A stretch of 64,000 nucleotides of DNA from Tepidanaerobacter syntrophicus (GTDB taxonomy: Bacteria; Bacillota; Thermosediminibacteria; Thermosediminibacterales; Tepidanaerobacteraceae). The translations under genes and the position numbers were made by a program. Positions 1,022 to 7,223 of the stretch are shown here, one piece after another. The notes under the pieces are model-generated. The model did not search any database. It was not told the origin of the DNA and saw only the letters and a list, made by a program, of their open reading frames with translations. The stretch is taken from positions 372,001 to 436,000 of the forward strand of contig NZ_DF977001.1 in NCBI RefSeq assembly GCF_001485475.2. The letters run 5' to 3'. The first letter of the stretch is position 1. Every line of letters starts with the position of its first letter.

Positions 1022-1504
1022 CTAATCCAATTTATCGGCCTGGCAGATATACTTATATTTAATTATATTTGTTTGTATCAGTCGGATAATAGAAAGTCCA
1101 AAACCAACCACAGGTGCAAGATATACATATCTCATAGGAATACCTAATGCGGCTGAAGTACGAGTTGCACGGAATACAATGTCAAGTCCAAAATAAGTCA
1201 TAATCAACATAAAAATTAATAGAAATAAATCAGCAAGCATATCAGTTATTAAGTTTCCTTTTTTATCAAATAACGAATCTAAAGCATCTACTTTTAAATG
1301 CATTTTCATCTTTATTCCATAACTTACTCCTACATAAGTCATCCAGATAAATAAGTATCGTGCCAATTCTTCAGACCACGTTAAAGAGTTTCGAAAAATG
1401 AAGCGCATAATAACTTGAAGAAAAACGATTATTGAAGTTGAACTTAGTAAAATAACAAGAAGCCATTCTTCCAAATGATCATCGAGCCATTTTAATGCCC
1501 TCAT
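1022..1504 (-). CDS. dctQ: TRAP transporter small permease (DctQ type)
   Basis: Small four-helix membrane subunit of the TRAP transporter, 160 residues, normal for the family. The motif TWSEELARYLFIW in the second quarter is the DctQ signature. The ATG at 1504 (MRALKW) is chosen over upstream in-frame starts because TAGGAGGG stands just before it and because longer versions would run into dctP. It lies between dctP (10 bp upstream) and dctM (11 bp downstream). Confidence 0.9.
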   Translation of the reverse strand: MRALKWLDDHLEEWLLVILLSSTSIIVFLQVIMRFIFRNSLTWSEELARYLFIWMTYVGVSYGIKMKMHLKVDALDSLFDKKGNLITDMLADLFLLIFMLIMTYFGLDIVFRATRTSAALGIPMRYVYLAPVVGFGLSIIRLIQTNIIKYKYICQADKLD

Positions 1505-1514
1505 AATAACCCTC

Positions 1515-2507
1515 CTAACTTTTTGCTGCTTTAAGAATGCGATCAATAATCTCTTGACCATGAATTCGAGCAAACCATTCGTATACAGGACCAACTTTTT
1601 CTTTAAAGGGTTCCGTATCCACCTCAATCACTTTCATTCCATCTGCAACTAATTCATCTATCATTTGCTGTTCCCTCTCGCGCAGCAGTTGACGGTGAAA
1701 TTCCGCACTTTCCTGGGCTGATTTCTGAATAATTTCTTGATACTCTTTGGAAAGTGATTGAAAAAATTCATCACTAATAATAAGATGAACAGGCATATAT
1801 TGGTGATTTGTCATAATCAAGTAATCTTGCACTTCTTGAAACTTATTCGTATAAGCATTGGCAACTGGATTTTCCTGTGCATCCACCGTGCCTTGTTGCA
1901 AAGCAGTATAAAGCTCGCCAAAGCCCATGGGTGTTGGATTTGCGCCAAGTGCATTAAACACCTGAATTGACATGGGAAATTCTGGTGTACGGATTTTTAA
2001 ACCTTTTAAATCTTCTGGTGAATATATTGGACGATTTGAAGTAATTTGGCGGAATCCATTTTCAAAGTAAGCGAGTATTCTCAAATTATTATCTAAATAT
2101 GTATCCGCTACTTTACGACCAATCTCTCCATCTAATGTAGCCCATGCCTCCTCATAACTATCAAAAAGGTATGGTAGTTCAAAAACGCTGATTAAAGATC
2201 CATATTGATTAGTCGAGCTAGTTGCTACCATTTCCAAATCGTCAAAGGAAACGCTTTCTGTTAATGTAGCTTCATTTCCTAATAATCCTTGTGGATAGAT
2301 TTCTACTCTAATTTCTCCGTTCGAACGCTCTTCCACCAATTCTTTAAAATGGGTTAAGGCAATGTGGCGCTCATTAACCACTGGTTGGTCATGGCCTATA
2401 CGAATCAGGATTGTTTTGTCATCTTCTTTTTGTGTAAAGAAAACAAAGACGAGAGAAAAACCTAACACAAACAAAAGACTAATGACTATACCCCGCATGT
2501 ATTTCAT
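1515..2507 (-). CDS. dctP: TRAP transporter solute-binding protein (DctP family)
   Basis: Extracytoplasmic receptor of the TRAP system, 330 residues. Residues 5-25 form a signal peptide/anchor without a lipobox, followed by a DctP fold with the family segment ALQQGTVDAQENP near residue 200. DctP proteins bind carboxylate-bearing ligands through a conserved Arg, and an IRTPEFPM segment near 170 fits that region. The leader is odd: the AAGGAG ribosome site is about 30 nt from the ATG, with a 20-nt hairpin between them (see separate entry). An in-frame ATG four codons in is an alternative start. Confidence 0.93.
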   Translation of the reverse strand: MKYMRGIVISLLFVLGFSLVFVFFTQKEDDKTILIRIGHDQPVVNERHIALTHFKELVEERSNGEIRVEIYPQGLLGNEATLTESVSFDDLEMVATSSTNQYGSLISVFELPYLFDSYEEAWATLDGEIGRKVADTYLDNNLRILAYFENGFRQITSNRPIYSPEDLKGLKIRTPEFPMSIQVFNALGANPTPMGFGELYTALQQGTVDAQENPVANAYTNKFQEVQDYLIMTNHQYMPVHLIISDEFFQSLSKEYQEIIQKSAQESAEFHRQLLREREQQMIDELVADGMKVIEVDTEPFKEKVGPVYEWFARIHGQEIIDRILKAAKS

Positions 2508-2517
2508 TGTTTTTTAC

Positions 2518-2546
2518 GTCGAGTAGACAGCCTCGACACTCCTTTC
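2518..2546 (-). promoter_or_regulatory. Hairpin between SD and start codon of dctP
   Basis: Read on the minus strand, a GAAAGGAG ribosome site is followed by GTCGAG, an 8-nt loop and CTCGAC, a perfect 6-bp stem, then exactly 10 nt before the ATG. The same arrangement occurs before the short-chain dehydrogenase gene at 4537-4565, with two mismatches in 29 nt. If the stem folds, the SD would come within normal reach of the start codon. Function is inferred. Confidence 0.6.
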
Positions 2547-2665
2547 TAAATATTTTAATCAGTATCAGGTATCTTTCGTATGCAGAAGAGACTACTGAAA
2601 AAATTGATTCATGGTTTTTTAACTCACATTTCAAATTATACTTCGATGCTCTTCTTTTTTAAAAA

Positions 2666-3556
2666 TTACTTCATTTCATCACAGGTAAAATTGGCTAATT
2701 TTTCATAGTAAATTAGCAACCCGCTATGATCCGTTCGCTCATGACCGTGAGCAATCAGCGAACGAAACATTTCCAGAACCTGAGTCGTCAAAGGAAGAGG
2801 AGCATTGATTTCTTTACCGGCATCAATAACATTTTGTAAATCTTTTGCATTTATAGAAATAGGACCACCCGGCTGAAAATTTCTTTTTACTATTTTGGGA
2901 ATTTTTGCATCTAGCACGGCGCTTCCGGCAGCTCCCCCACGGACTGCTTCATACATTTTAGTAATATCAATATCTGCCATTTCGGCAAAAGTCACAGCTT
3001 CTGCCATAGCAGCCATATTAACATTTACCATAATCTGATTAGCTAACTTTACCGTTGTACCAGCACCATTGGAACCAACATGAATAATATCTCTTCCAAC
3101 TGCTTGTAATACAGGAAATGCTTTTTTAAAAGCTTTATCTTCTCCGCCTACCATTATGGAAAGTGTTCTCGATATCGCACCATCTTCACCACCAGATACC
3201 GGAGCATCTACCATGTCAATTCCTTTTTTCCTTAGGGTATCAGCAATCCTTTTTGAAACCACAGGCGAAATTGAACTAGTATCAATTAGTAAGGTATTTT
3301 CTTTCGCATGGCTGATAATTCCGTTTTCACCGAGAACTACTTCTTCCACGTGGGATGAATTAGGCAACATAGTAAAAAACACTTCACTTTTTTCTGCTAA
3401 TTCCGAAACACTTTTTGAGGCTATAGCACCATATTTTTCAACTGCTTCTACTGCCTTTCGATTAATGTCATATACTCTTAACGAATGCCCTGCCTTGATA
3501 AGGTTGTAAACCATTGGTCTTCCCATAATGCCTAGCCCTATAAAACCAATTCTCAT
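2666..3556 (-). CDS. NAD(P)-dependent 3-hydroxyisobutyrate dehydrogenase-family reductase
   Basis: A 296-residue beta-hydroxyacid dehydrogenase of the HIBADH/tartronate-semialdehyde reductase/YihU group. It opens with the Rossmann motif GFIGLGIMGRP, carries the substrate-loop motif DAPVSGG near residue 118, and has the catalytic Lys in VKLANQ near residue 170. The ATG at 3556 follows CAAGGAGGG, so a longer ORF beginning nine codons earlier is not used. Family members reduce semialdehydes such as tartronate semialdehyde or sulfolactaldehyde. The neighbours (transketolase, SDR, TRAP) suggest reduction or oxidation of a short hydroxyacid from the imported compound. Exact substrate unknown. Confidence 0.9.
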   Translation of the reverse strand: MRIGFIGLGIMGRPMVYNLIKAGHSLRVYDINRKAVEAVEKYGAIASKSVSELAEKSEVFFTMLPNSSHVEEVVLGENGIISHAKENTLLIDTSSISPVVSKRIADTLRKKGIDMVDAPVSGGEDGAISRTLSIMVGGEDKAFKKAFPVLQAVGRDIIHVGSNGAGTTVKLANQIMVNVNMAAMAEAVTFAEMADIDITKMYEAVRGGAAGSAVLDAKIPKIVKRNFQPGGPISINAKDLQNVIDAGKEINAPLPLTTQVLEMFRSLIAHGHERTDHSGLLIYYEKLANFTCDEMK

Positions 3557-3727
3557 GATTTCCCTCCTTGTTGCAAAAATCATTCACTATATTTTTCAAT
3601 TCCTTGTTAATGCGCATACCTTTTTCAATTTTGATTAGCCTGTATATTTTGAATAATAATGATAACTTTTAGAGGCACATAATGCAAAAAGTTTATTTTG
3701 TCACGAATTCAGGTAAAAGCGGATTAA

Positions 3728-3758
3728 GCCTTAGGACATTTCGTTAGCTGCCTAAGGC
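3728..3758. repeat. Inverted repeat downstream of the SDR gene
   Basis: GCCTTAGG and CCTAAGGC form a perfect 8-bp stem with a 15-nt loop just after the stop of the short-chain dehydrogenase gene. No T-run follows on the minus strand, so it is more likely an mRNA processing or stability element than a strong terminator. Confidence 0.4.
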
Positions 3759-3767
3759 CTAGTATTT

Positions 3768-4526
3768 TTAATCCATATGTTGCCCACCATTAATATCTAT
3801 ATCTTCACCAGTTATATATGATGCTTCTTCTGACGCTAAAAAAGCAATTGTTGACGCGATTTCCTGAGTTTCTCCTGGTCTTCCTATGGGAATTCCGGCA
3901 ATAATATTGTCTGCCTGTTCTTTTGAAAGAGATTTCCATATCTCTGTATTAATCAAGCCTGGCGCAACACAGTTTACGGTAATACCATCTTGGGCCACTT
4001 CCCGTGCAAGATTTTTAGAAAATCCTAATACTGCAGCCTTTGATGCAGAATAATGCGCGCCGCCAAATATACCTCCGCCTCTTTTTGCAGAAACGGATGA
4101 CAGACTTATAATTCTACCATATTTTTGTTTTTTCATTGGTCGTAAACATGCTTGTGTAATTAAGAACAATCCATACATATTGACACTGAAAATTCTTTTC
4201 ATGTCATCAAGGGTCATATCTTCTACAGTAACTTTTTGTGAGATTCCCGCATTATTCACTAAAATATCAATTCGTCCAAATTTGTCTAAAACATCTTCTA
4301 TTAATGTATCGACAAAGCTTTTGTCTGTAAGATCTCCAGCAACGCCATAGGCTTTTCCACCATTTTCCTCAATGAAGTTAACATTCTTCTTAACGCCGTC
4401 TTCATTAATATCTGTAATAACAACGGTTGCCCCTTGATTCGCTAATGTAGAAGCAATCGTTTTTCCAATACCTTTTTCAGAACCACTTCCAGTAATTATT
4501 GCGACTTTATTATTTAATTCAAACAT
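3768..4526 (-). CDS. Short-chain dehydrogenase/reductase (classical SDR)
   Basis: Cytoplasmic NAD(P)-dependent oxidoreductase of 252 residues, the usual SDR length. Visible are the cofactor loop TGSGSEKGIGK (12-22), NNAG (91-94), a serine pair at 143-144 and the catalytic YSASK (Tyr159, Lys163), ending with an ITGEDIDINGG-type C-terminus. FabG and polyol/sugar-alcohol dehydrogenases share this pattern, but its place in a transketolase/TRAP operon argues for a catabolic ketose, polyol or sugar-acid substrate. Translation appears to depend on the hairpin-spaced ribosome site at 4537-4565. Confidence 0.92.
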   Translation of the reverse strand: MFELNNKVAIITGSGSEKGIGKTIASTLANQGATVVITDINEDGVKKNVNFIEENGGKAYGVAGDLTDKSFVDTLIEDVLDKFGRIDILVNNAGISQKVTVEDMTLDDMKRIFSVNMYGLFLITQACLRPMKKQKYGRIISLSSVSAKRGGGIFGGAHYSASKAAVLGFSKNLAREVAQDGITVNCVAPGLINTEIWKSLSKEQADNIIAGIPIGRPGETQEIASTIAFLASEEASYITGEDIDINGGQHMD

Positions 4527-4536
4527 GTATAGTCTG

Positions 4537-4565
4537 GTCGAGTAGACAGTCTCGACTCTCCTTTC
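4537..4565 (-). promoter_or_regulatory. Hairpin between SD and start codon of the SDR gene
   Basis: Second copy of the dctP leader element. GAAAGGAG is followed by GTCGAG, an 8-nt loop and CTCGAC, then exactly 10 nt (CAGACTATAC) before the ATG at 4526. No other well-placed ribosome site lies near this start. Confidence 0.6.
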
Positions 4566-4586
4566 ATCGTTAATTTATATTTGCAT

Positions 4587-4653
4587 CGCAAAGGGACTGC
4601 CTACTATCCCTTGCGGAACCGTACATGCGGTTTTTCACATGTAAGCAATGCTC
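4587..4653 (-). other. Possible relic of a group II intron 3' end (domain V/VI-like)
   Basis: On the minus strand GAGC, about 30 nt, then CGCATGTACGGTTC resemble the two strands of group II intron domain V, although the 5' strand is a poor match and the element is 38 nt instead of about 34. It is followed at once by a second hairpin (CGCAAGGGA paired with TCCCTTTGCG, 4587-4615) where domain VI would lie. No intron-encoded protein or other domains are present. This is a weak structural resemblance only. Confidence 0.35.
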
Positions 4654-4700
4654 TCATTTATCATGCCTATTGCTATTCTTTGAGCTTTTTTCTTGTATGA

Positions 4701-5645
4701 TTAAAGCAATTGTTTTGCATTCATTATTATGTTTTCTACTGTAATTCCATTTAATTCTAACAGCTTTTCGTAAGGGGCAGATTGACCAAATTGATCTTGA
4801 ATGCCAATTCTTCTTACCTTGCCTTTACCGGCTTCTGCAACAACTTCACAAACTGCGCTTCCTAGACCATTTATTACATTATGATCTTCTACTGTTATAA
4901 TTCTACCAATATCCACACAGTCTAAAACAGCTTGTTTATCAAGTGGCTTAATCGTATGCATATCTAGTAATTTTACAGAAACTCCTTCTTCTTCTAATTG
5001 ATTTGCTGCCTCAATAGCAAGGCAAACTGTATCGCCATTTGCGATAATTGCTACATCCTTGCCTTGTTTTAATTCCTTAGCTTTTCCTATGACAAATTCT
5101 TCATCTTCATCGTATATAACAGGTACTGCATCTCTTGTAAAGCGTAAATACACTGGGCCATAAATTTCTGCCGCTTGTCTTACAAGCTTTCTTGTAGAGT
5201 AATAATCAGCTCCCATTACTACTGTCATATTTGGAATTGTTCTTAATACTCCCATGTCCTCAATTCCTTGATGGCTGCCTCCGTCATTTGCAGGAGTCAA
5301 TCCTCCATGAGAACACGCAATTTTTACGTTTAAATTGGGATAGCAGATTTCTTGTCGGATTTGTTCCGCCATTCTTAAAGATCCAAATACCGCGTATGTG
5401 CTAATAAAAGGAATTTTTCCAGTAGTTGCTAATCCCGCTGCAACTCCCGCACCATTTTGCTCCGCAATACCAACATTAATATGCTGTTTGGGAAGTTGCT
5501 TTTGGAATTCAGTAGTTTTGCAAGACTTTCCTATGTCGATATCCAGGACCATAATGTTTTTATTTTCTTTTCCTAGTTTAACGATTTCGTCACCAAAACC
5601 TTGCCGAGTAGCAATCTTTTTCATATCGTCTTTTTTCACGCTCAT
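4701..5645 (-). CDS. Transketolase, C-terminal subunit (split transketolase)
   Basis: Second half (314 residues) of a two-subunit transketolase: the pyrimidine-binding domain of the TPP site (about 10-180, with the GIAEQNGAGVAAG motif carrying the catalytic Glu) plus the C-terminal transketolase domain. The ATG at 5645 (MSVKKD) follows GTAGGAGG, which overlaps the stop of the first subunit; the longer reading into the upstream gene is rejected. Split transketolases are common in Firmicutes, for pentose-phosphate interconversion or for specialised catabolism in sugar operons. The linked transporter and reductases favour the second role. Confidence 0.93.
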   Translation of the reverse strand: MSVKKDDMKKIATRQGFGDEIVKLGKENKNIMVLDIDIGKSCKTTEFQKQLPKQHINVGIAEQNGAGVAAGLATTGKIPFISTYAVFGSLRMAEQIRQEICYPNLNVKIACSHGGLTPANDGGSHQGIEDMGVLRTIPNMTVVMGADYYSTRKLVRQAAEIYGPVYLRFTRDAVPVIYDEDEEFVIGKAKELKQGKDVAIIANGDTVCLAIEAANQLEEEGVSVKLLDMHTIKPLDKQAVLDCVDIGRIITVEDHNVINGLGSAVCEVVAEAGKGKVRRIGIQDQFGQSAPYEKLLELNGITVENIIMNAKQLL

Positions 5646-5655
5646 TTCAAGCCTC

Positions 5656-6489
5656 CTACTGTACTGATGCACGAAGTTCCTTCATTGCTTGTTCATATTC
5701 TTCATCATTTGGAGCAACTCCATGCCAGTTACATTTATTTTCCATAAAGGATACACCCTTACCTTTAACCGTATCCAAAACGATACATTTTGGCTTTCCA
5801 TTTTTTTGTCCACGAACAAAATCAAGAACACTGACGATTTGTTCCATAGAATGTCCATCAATACGCTGTGTTTCAAAACCAAATGCGCGGAATTTATCTT
5901 CGAAATCTTGTGTAGGCATTATTTCATCTGTAGTACCATCTAATTGAAGGCCATTGTTATCAACAAAAACCACTAGATTATCAAGTTTATATTTAGCGGC
6001 TGTTTGGACAGCTTCCCATATTTGACCTTCATTACATTCTCCATCACCAACCATCACAAACACACGATAATTCTTTTCATCAATTTTTCCAGCAATAGCC
6101 ATTCCAACGCCGCAGGATAAACCTTGACCAAGTGAACCTGTAGAAATGTCAATTCCTGGGCATTTCTTCATGTCAGGATGGCCTTGGAATGGAGATCCAT
6201 ATTCCCTTAACTTGTGGATAGTTTCATAAGGCACGTATCCCAACATTGCAAGGGCGGCATATTGAGCGGGACACGCATGTCCTTTTGATAGCACAAATCG
6301 ATCACGGTCTTCCCATCGAGGATTTTTAGGATCAATGTTCATCTCTTTAAAATAAAGCGCTGTCACCACATCAGCTGCAGAGAAAGATCCTCCCGGATGT
6401 CCCGATTGAGCTTCATAAATCATCGTCAATACCGTTTGTCTTAGTTCTGCTGCCTTTTGTTTTAGTTCTTCAATGCTAATATTTTTCAA
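5656..6489 (-). CDS. Transketolase, N-terminal subunit (TPP-binding)
   Basis: First half (277 residues) of the split transketolase, binding thiamine diphosphate and Mg2+. The TPP motif is clear: GDGECNEGQIWEA followed about 20 residues later by VDNNG; histidines in SGHPGG and KGHACPAQY are conserved active-site positions. The start is taken as TTG at 6489, because GAAGGTGA lies five bases upstream. The in-frame GTG at 6498 is itself part of that ribosome site and is unlikely. The C-terminal subunit begins 10 bp after the stop. Confidence 0.93.
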   Translation of the reverse strand: MKNISIEELKQKAAELRQTVLTMIYEAQSGHPGGSFSAADVVTALYFKEMNIDPKNPRWEDRDRFVLSKGHACPAQYAALAMLGYVPYETIHKLREYGSPFQGHPDMKKCPGIDISTGSLGQGLSCGVGMAIAGKIDEKNYRVFVMVGDGECNEGQIWEAVQTAAKYKLDNLVVFVDNNGLQLDGTTDEIMPTQDFEDKFRAFGFETQRIDGHSMEQIVSVLDFVRGQKNGKPKCIVLDTVKGKGVSFMENKCNWHGVAPNDEEYEQAMKELRASVQ

Positions 6490-6601
6490 GATATTCACCT
6501 TCTTTAAATTTATATTTGTTGTTAGAAATGAAAATCTATAATGCCTAATTTTGGTATCAACATTTAAAACTTATGTACTTGAAAGTTAAAGCTTATATGT
6601 A

Positions 6602-6715: not shown

Positions 6716-7223
6716 TAGTTATTTAAAAAATTTAATTAAATTCTCAACTTTCCCACCTATAAAATAGGCTTGAACCTTGAAAAAATCATATAGAAACGCA
6801 CTTTGAAATAAAAAAACCTCCATGCAATGGTAAAATCGAATTAGAACAACCCAATAATACCAATTGCTAAGGAGGTTTCTCATGGCAAGTATTGCCCTTG
6901 TCTGCTGACTAGACAGGAAATTTCAGGTGTGGCCCTTAACTATACTTTGCGGTATGAGCGGTATTCCAATAAGAAAGTTGAACAAAGTAAATTATAATAG
7001 GACTTCTGCTATTTCGTTCACAATAAGCGCAGAAAAAAATAGGAGACAATAAAAGAATAGTAGTTGGGCAAAATTAAAAACCGTAGAAGGGAAAAGCTTG
7101 TTGGTAGTGGCTATAACACCATAATTAATGGTGTTATAGAAGTGATGAGAATGACGGTCTTTTGATAAATAGTTACATGATTCTATTTACCAATTGGAAT
7201 AAAATATTCAGCCTTGATTACAA
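6716..7223. other. Intergenic region with palindromes and possible IS remnant
   Basis: No intact gene. An imperfect inverted repeat (AAACCTCC at 6814-6821 against GGAGGTTT at 6871-6878, extending to about 17 bp per arm) is followed by a short broken reading frame on the plus strand, roughly 6850-7000. A perfect 12-bp inverted repeat (7111-7122 and 7128-7139) lies before the lacI stop. It could be the remains of a small insertion sequence; no transposase motif could be confirmed. Confidence 0.35.

Follow-up and report, generated by a model that had tools for sequence, protein, structure and literature searches.

We find that the leaders of two genes of Tepidanaerobacter syntrophicus, dctP and a gene for an SDR-family dehydrogenase, are 5'-truncated remnants of one mobile group II intron family, an origin that the sequence makes near certain. 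The fuller account, in which the leaders are such relics and the living introns insert behind Shine-Dalgarno (SD) sequences, carry a substitute SD and possess a domain VI with two folds, we consider highly likely. What the window (the whole stretch of 64,000 nt that was analysed, positions 372,001 to 436,000 of contig NZ_DF977001.1) contains is thus a pair of intron relics acting as leaders, and its value lies in the parent family that they reveal. The features concerned are these:

1515-2507, minus strand: dctP, a TRAP solute-binding protein (PF03480)
2508-2517, minus strand: dctP spacer, 10 nt from hairpin to ATG; former 3' exon
2518-2546, minus strand: dctP leader element; SD GAAAGGAG at 2546-2539, GTCGAG/CTCGAC hairpin at 2537-2518 with loop GCTGTCTA; last 29 nt of the group II intron 3' end (covariance model R1, 36.5 bits)
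2666-3583, minus strand: 3-hydroxyisobutyrate dehydrogenase-like gene of the same gene run, with an ordinary SD and without the element
3768-4526, minus strand: SDR-family dehydrogenase gene
4527-4536, minus strand: SDR spacer, 10 nt from hairpin to ATG; former 3' exon
4537-4565, minus strand: SDR leader element; SD GAAAGGAG at 4565-4558, GTCGAG/CTCGAC hairpin at 4556-4537 with loop ACTGTCTA; the domain VI 3' strand of the intron (R1, 63.2 bits over 4537-4636)
4587-4615, minus strand: domain VI 5' strand with the alternative stem CGCAAGGGA/TCCCTTTGCG, whose loop AGTAGGCA is complementary to the terminal hairpin loop TGTCTACT
4616-4636, minus strand: 3' half of intron domain V (GAAAAACCGCATGTACGGTTC), with the 5' truncation point
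4701-6498, minus strand: split transketolase genes upstream of the SDR gene, C half 4701-5672 and N half 5656-6498, an order also found in genomes G284 and G367

The two 29-nt elements are identical at 27 of 29 positions, differing (dctP/SDR) by T/A after the SD and by G/A in the loop. The pattern GAAAGGAGNGTCGAGNCTGTCTACTCGAC matches the window at these two places and nowhere in 100 shuffles of it, and a search of the whole 2.43-Mb genome with the hairpin 20-mer, allowing up to three mismatches, returns only the same two copies. In both leaders the 6-bp hairpin is predicted to fold with about -10 kcal/mol and stands exactly 10 nt before the ATG (2517-2508 for dctP, 4536-4527 for the SDR gene), neither spacer holds a second SD, and the gap from SD to ATG is 31 nt when linear and about 11 nt with the hairpin looped out, an overlong spacing of the type known from phage T4. 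An earlier note on this DNA had described just such twin leaders, near-identical and with no other usable ribosome site, and pattern search, shuffles and folding confirm the description. Its aside that the elements might be a mobile or intron scar was also right, and it missed the recognisable intron sequence that continues upstream of the SDR element at 4566-4636 (minus strand).

The identity of the elements comes from other genomes. An exact scan of public genome contigs finds the hairpin 20-mer in at least 120 other genome stretches (Lachnospiraceae, Oscillospiraceae, Synergistales, Selenomonadales, Mahella and others), and among the matches listed it is nearly always the exact 3' end of a group II intron. 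Nearly all of those listed with enough sequence carry, upstream of the hairpin, domain V, the domain VI 5' strand, an AT-rich stretch and GAAAGGAG; an SD pentamer precedes the hairpin by a few nucleotides in 121 of 122, and conservation ends abruptly after CTCGAC, beyond which the listed sequences vary. For many of the matches listed a contig end is 30-100 nt away, which fits a multicopy element that breaks assemblies. Family members were collected by exact match to the terminal hairpin, and conservation of that hairpin within the main subfamily is therefore partly circular.

Full-length copies measure about 1.88 kb and start with GTGCGCC / GTGCGCCAGTTCGG, and the complete ones encode a group II reverse transcriptase (RT)/maturase of 426-435 aa; the protein of copy L043 scores above the cut-off of TIGR04416 (group II RT/maturase), and that of L207 has RVT_1 and GIIM domains. 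The 5' GUGYG and 3' AY boundaries are present in 15 two-ended copies (GTGCGCC...CTCGAC), domain V has the AGC triad and the 2-nt bulge (GAGCCGTATGCGG-GAAAA-CCGCA-CG-TACGGTTC; alignment A1), and the branch-point A expected 7-8 nt from the 3' end is found at -7 in ACTGTCT-A-CTCGAC, where the minimum-energy fold bulges it. The family thus resembles bacterial mobile group II introns with an RT/maturase lacking the endonuclease domain, sharing with them the GUGCG 5' end, domains V and VI, the bulged branch-point A, the AY 3' end, the intron-encoded RT/maturase and the EBS1-IBS1 interaction; it differs from known bacterial group II introns in targeting the SD and in a domain VI with a substitute SD and a second fold. 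Among viral contigs one full-length relative, L207, lies in a phage-like contig, and plasmid and phage collections yield only RT-region or short similarity to the family. Two copies, L098 and L090, are mini-introns of 193 and 228 nt that keep both family ends and almost no interior, and both adjoin an SD and an ATG.

Covariance model R1, built from 19 relatives with the window sequence excluded, has exactly two matches in the window, at 4537-4636 (63.2 bits) and 2518-2577 (36.5 bits). The SDR copy is the last 100 nt of the intron: truncated within the domain V loop, it begins with the 3' half of domain V and runs through the domain VI 5' strand and the linker to the SD and the hairpin. At dctP, clear intron sequence is limited to 29 nt; the similarity of this copy to intron linkers upstream of the SD is not significant (12 of 200 shuffles). 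Neither window element has a complete ribozyme and reverse transcriptase. Rfam at gathering thresholds gives nothing in the window and RF00029 has no match in the whole genome, because the window copies are truncated. The genome has no group II RT, its single RT (G000:C5:26899-27501; L125 1291-2316) looking instead like the type found in diversity-generating retroelements, with a small ORF of accessory size and a phage-tail-like ORF adjacent. With most of the intron gone and no group II RT in the genome, the window copies are relics unable to splice or move. Comparably short copies occur elsewhere, hairpin-only or confined to domain VI (L062, L069, L076; L029, L046, L070, L091), and truncation is therefore general in the intron family.

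The truncation may have come about by incomplete reverse transcription or by later deletion. For dctP in particular, the scar could instead stem from a deletion between two repeats, the native SD and that of the intron, or from a local copy of the SDR leader, and we give this a chance a little short of even. The native SD and the intron GAAAGGAG form natural direct repeats, the certain intron sequence at dctP starts exactly at GAAAGGAG, and L062, L069 and L076 are further hairpin-only copies. The dctP and SDR copies are, however, different family variants (T..G and A..A), which makes recent copying unlikely, and the copies cut inside domain V or VI (the SDR copy, L029, L046, L070 and L091) suggest a graded 5' truncation such as interrupted target-primed reverse transcription leaves.

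Sites without the intron are found for the SDR gene. The syntenic order transketolase N half, C half, SDR recurs in 2 of 398 genomes of the phylum (G284 and G367), and there the SDR leaders, gaGAAGGAGtctttaattATG in G284 and gaAGGAGtgtataacATG in G367, are a plain SD followed by 8 or 9 nt and the ATG, without the element. The window SDR leader has the same layout, except that about 100 nt of intron separate the upstream region from the spacer cagactatac. Neither a dctP ortholog nor an empty dctP site was found in the 398 genomes of the phylum. The 40 nearest relatives contain no close counterpart of dctP or the SDR gene, which suggests that the gene run (window 1022-6498) came from another source and may have brought the relics with it. 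Upstream of the transketolase genes, window 6800-7190 holds short broken reading frames behind a strong SD that resemble a decayed insertion sequence.

These sites and the wider distribution also bear on the reading favoured in the earlier note, a host cis-regulatory leader common to dctP and the SDR gene that would tune binding protein and dehydrogenase jointly. That two almost identical leaders occur in a single run of genes with related functions would fit it, but the genome has only these two copies, the same element ends a mobile intron in many and distant genomes, where it precedes many different downstream sequences, and the syntenic SDR operons do with an ordinary leader. Joint tuning is thus unsupported; the idea is largely refuted, and we regard it as very improbable.

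Among the parent introns, an SD core lies in the last 9 nt of 25 of 36 distinct 5' exons, as against 3 in a control window, and the mean pairing of the 5' exons with the anti-SD is -5.8 kcal/mol versus -1.8 kcal/mol in the control. On the other side, an ATG that opens a reading frame follows the hairpin by 7-12 nt in 79 of 118 flanked relatives among the matches listed, and shifted windows give 20-26 ATGs scattered across the whole 30-nt range. Joining the exons yields an SD, 6-12 nt and an ATG in 10 of 15 two-ended copies, as in the restored leader aatcaaaggag^GTTATTATATG. An EBS1 hexamer sits at one fixed offset in a domain I loop and forms on average 5.14 of 6 pairs with IBS1, compared with 4.18 when partners are shuffled (0 of 5000 shuffles reach the observed value); the two covary, exon GAAGAA occurring with EBS1 TTCTTT and exon TATGGG with EBS1 CCCATT, and EBS1 is anti-SD-like. 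The parent introns thus appear to insert directly behind SD sequences, guided by this anti-SD-like EBS1. Assignment to the group IIC class, which targets terminators and attC sites, was considered and set aside, since the 5' exons end in SD cores.

The origin of the substitute SD is shown by canonical introns of the window organism's own family. Multicopy group II introns there (L151, L158, L162, L171, L174 and L176, in G010 and G011) have nearly the same 3' strand (TGTCTACTCGAC) without the SD insert, and they are likely a sister lineage. Three of them (L151, L158 and L174) end in ...CCCATGTCTACTCGAC, and L174 and L176 end in GTGAGGGGC-ATGGGCCGCAAGGCCCAT-GTCTACTCGAC; from the first of these endings it follows that the 3' strand of the hairpin is also that of domain VI and that the SD forms part of an insertion into the loop of this domain. 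The SD family has the two domain VI strands parted by an insert that includes CCTTTCAC, a linker, GAAAGGAG and GTCGAG. We also considered a 3' extension like that of B.c.I4 (domain VII) and dropped it, as the canonical sister introns place the insert inside the domain VI loop and leave the branch strand terminal.

Two competing folds are predicted for this enlarged domain VI. In fold S the branch-point helix GAG-GGGCAGU/ACUGUCU-A-CUC forms, the insert lies in its loop and CCUUUCAC pairs with the SD; in fold T the hairpins GUGAGGGG/CCUUUCAC and GUCGAG/CUCGAC form, the branch-point helix is lost, and the SD is free, with a hairpin between it and the ATG. The loops of the two fold-T hairpins are complementary (UAGGCA/UGUCUA) and are jointly changed to UGGACG/CGUCUA in a diverged subfamily. 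That subfamily keeps both helices with other letters and stands 6-7 nt before the ATG; because a MAFFT alignment of the switch region misaligned it, pairing was judged for each sequence by constrained folding. The folds were compared in 51 distinct members, namely 50 relatives plus the SDR copy of the window. The SD has a mean accessibility of 0.12 in S and of 0.79 in T; S has the lowest energy in 47 of the 51, and T lies about 4 kcal/mol higher. SD accessibility changes by at least 0.5 between the folds in 71% of members versus 9% when the insert is shuffled. A first T stem of some kind appears in half of the shuffled inserts. For subfamily 2 the prediction is a partly paired SD in S and T alike. 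In two genera of the window organism's family, the same membrane-protein gene has a copy of the diverged subfamily 6 nt upstream (L149 and L150, in G005 and G007), and the G005 copy, at about 613 nt, is too short to encode an RT.

The window SDR copy keeps the first T stem by paired changes (CGCAAGGGA/UCCCUUUGCG) and has mismatches at the base of the branch-point helix; its minimum is predicted to be T (-20.9 kcal/mol), in which SD accessibility is about 0.9. T is likewise the predicted minimum in truncated L070, and S still is in truncated L029.

These folds allow the leaders to be weighed against a simpler account, in which they are intron relics without any structural function: an SD with a fortuitous hairpin, from which ribosomes would reach the start codon by sliding or re-initiation, the hairpin bridging nothing and the parent having no switch. 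Intron origin alone would explain the sequence identity, and most intact copies have a minimum-energy fold other than T. Yet the GUCGAG strand is unneeded for domain VI and absent from the canonical sister introns, it is kept in the diverged subfamily, which was found by model and not by pattern, hiding and release of the SD depend on the order of the insert far more than in shuffles, and the SDR copy has compensated the basal pairs of its first T stem while the base of domain VI is broken. We therefore judge functionless relics to be unlikely, at roughly one chance in four. A hairpin-bridged SD, as the earlier note proposed for the two leaders, is plausible, given the ATG spacing among relatives and the precedent of the T4 gene 38 and gene 25 leaders, where an excessive SD-AUG distance is likewise reduced to a working one by an intervening hairpin (PMC3014915); the T4 leaders differ from those of the window in not deriving from a mobile element and in having no competing splicing fold.

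With a bridging hairpin and a switching parent, the following sequence of events would result. The intron would insert right behind an SD and so separate it from its start codon, and the enlarged domain VI would bring a substitute SD. In fold S this SD would be hidden and the RNA able to splice, and the spliced mRNA would regain its native SD-ATG leader; in fold T the unspliced RNA would offer a free substitute SD, with the hairpin bridging the distance to the ATG to something close to the native spacing. Since a ribosome could not occupy the substitute SD while the branch-point helix is formed, translation and splicing would be kept apart. A truncated copy would have use for fold T alone, with dctP and the SDR gene relying on the SD left by the intron. 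That the RNA splices in cells, that translation begins from the substitute SD and that switching takes place is what folding and sequence comparison lead us to infer. In its boldest form the proposal is that the SD is a fourth kind of target, recognised through an EBS1 that mimics the anti-SD, that domain VI is a bistable switch between splicing and translation, one or the other, that the host gene is translatable with or without its intron, and that broken copies persist as intron-donated ribosome-binding sites; we lean towards it.

Published systems match parts of this arrangement. B.c.I4 and related domain VII introns (PMC3261151) share with the parent family an extra sequence near the 3' end, but theirs is 53-70 nt beyond a complete domain VI and acts on splicing, whereas the parent family has its insert within the loop of domain VI, whose 3' strand remains terminal; that paper does not mention SDs. 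In the alternatively spliced C. tetani intron C.te.I1 (PMC3919590) domain V/VI motifs likewise carry translation start signals for downstream genes, but the annotated start codons lie inside the intron, and neither insertion at an SD nor a substitute SD is reported. The C. difficile c-di-GMP riboswitch with its group I ribozyme (PMC3984707) is alike in that a self-splicing leader intron decides whether a ribosome-binding site reaches the start codon; it differs in being group I and ligand controlled, and it has been described as a regulatory element that was domesticated. Shine-Dalgarno sites go unmentioned in a recent group II intron census (PMC8919778), and we found no published SD-targeting group II intron family in the open-licence literature.

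If the proposal holds, a mobile element would enter a bacterial gene at its most sensitive point and yet not silence it, bringing its own ribosome-binding site. To homing sites, terminator motifs and attC sites, the three target kinds listed for bacterial group II introns (PMC4424553), the family would add another, and its domain VI would be a natural RNA switch that couples splicing to translation through the same fold that holds the branch point. It would also mark a route from mobile intron relics to working host leaders, as at dctP and the SDR gene.
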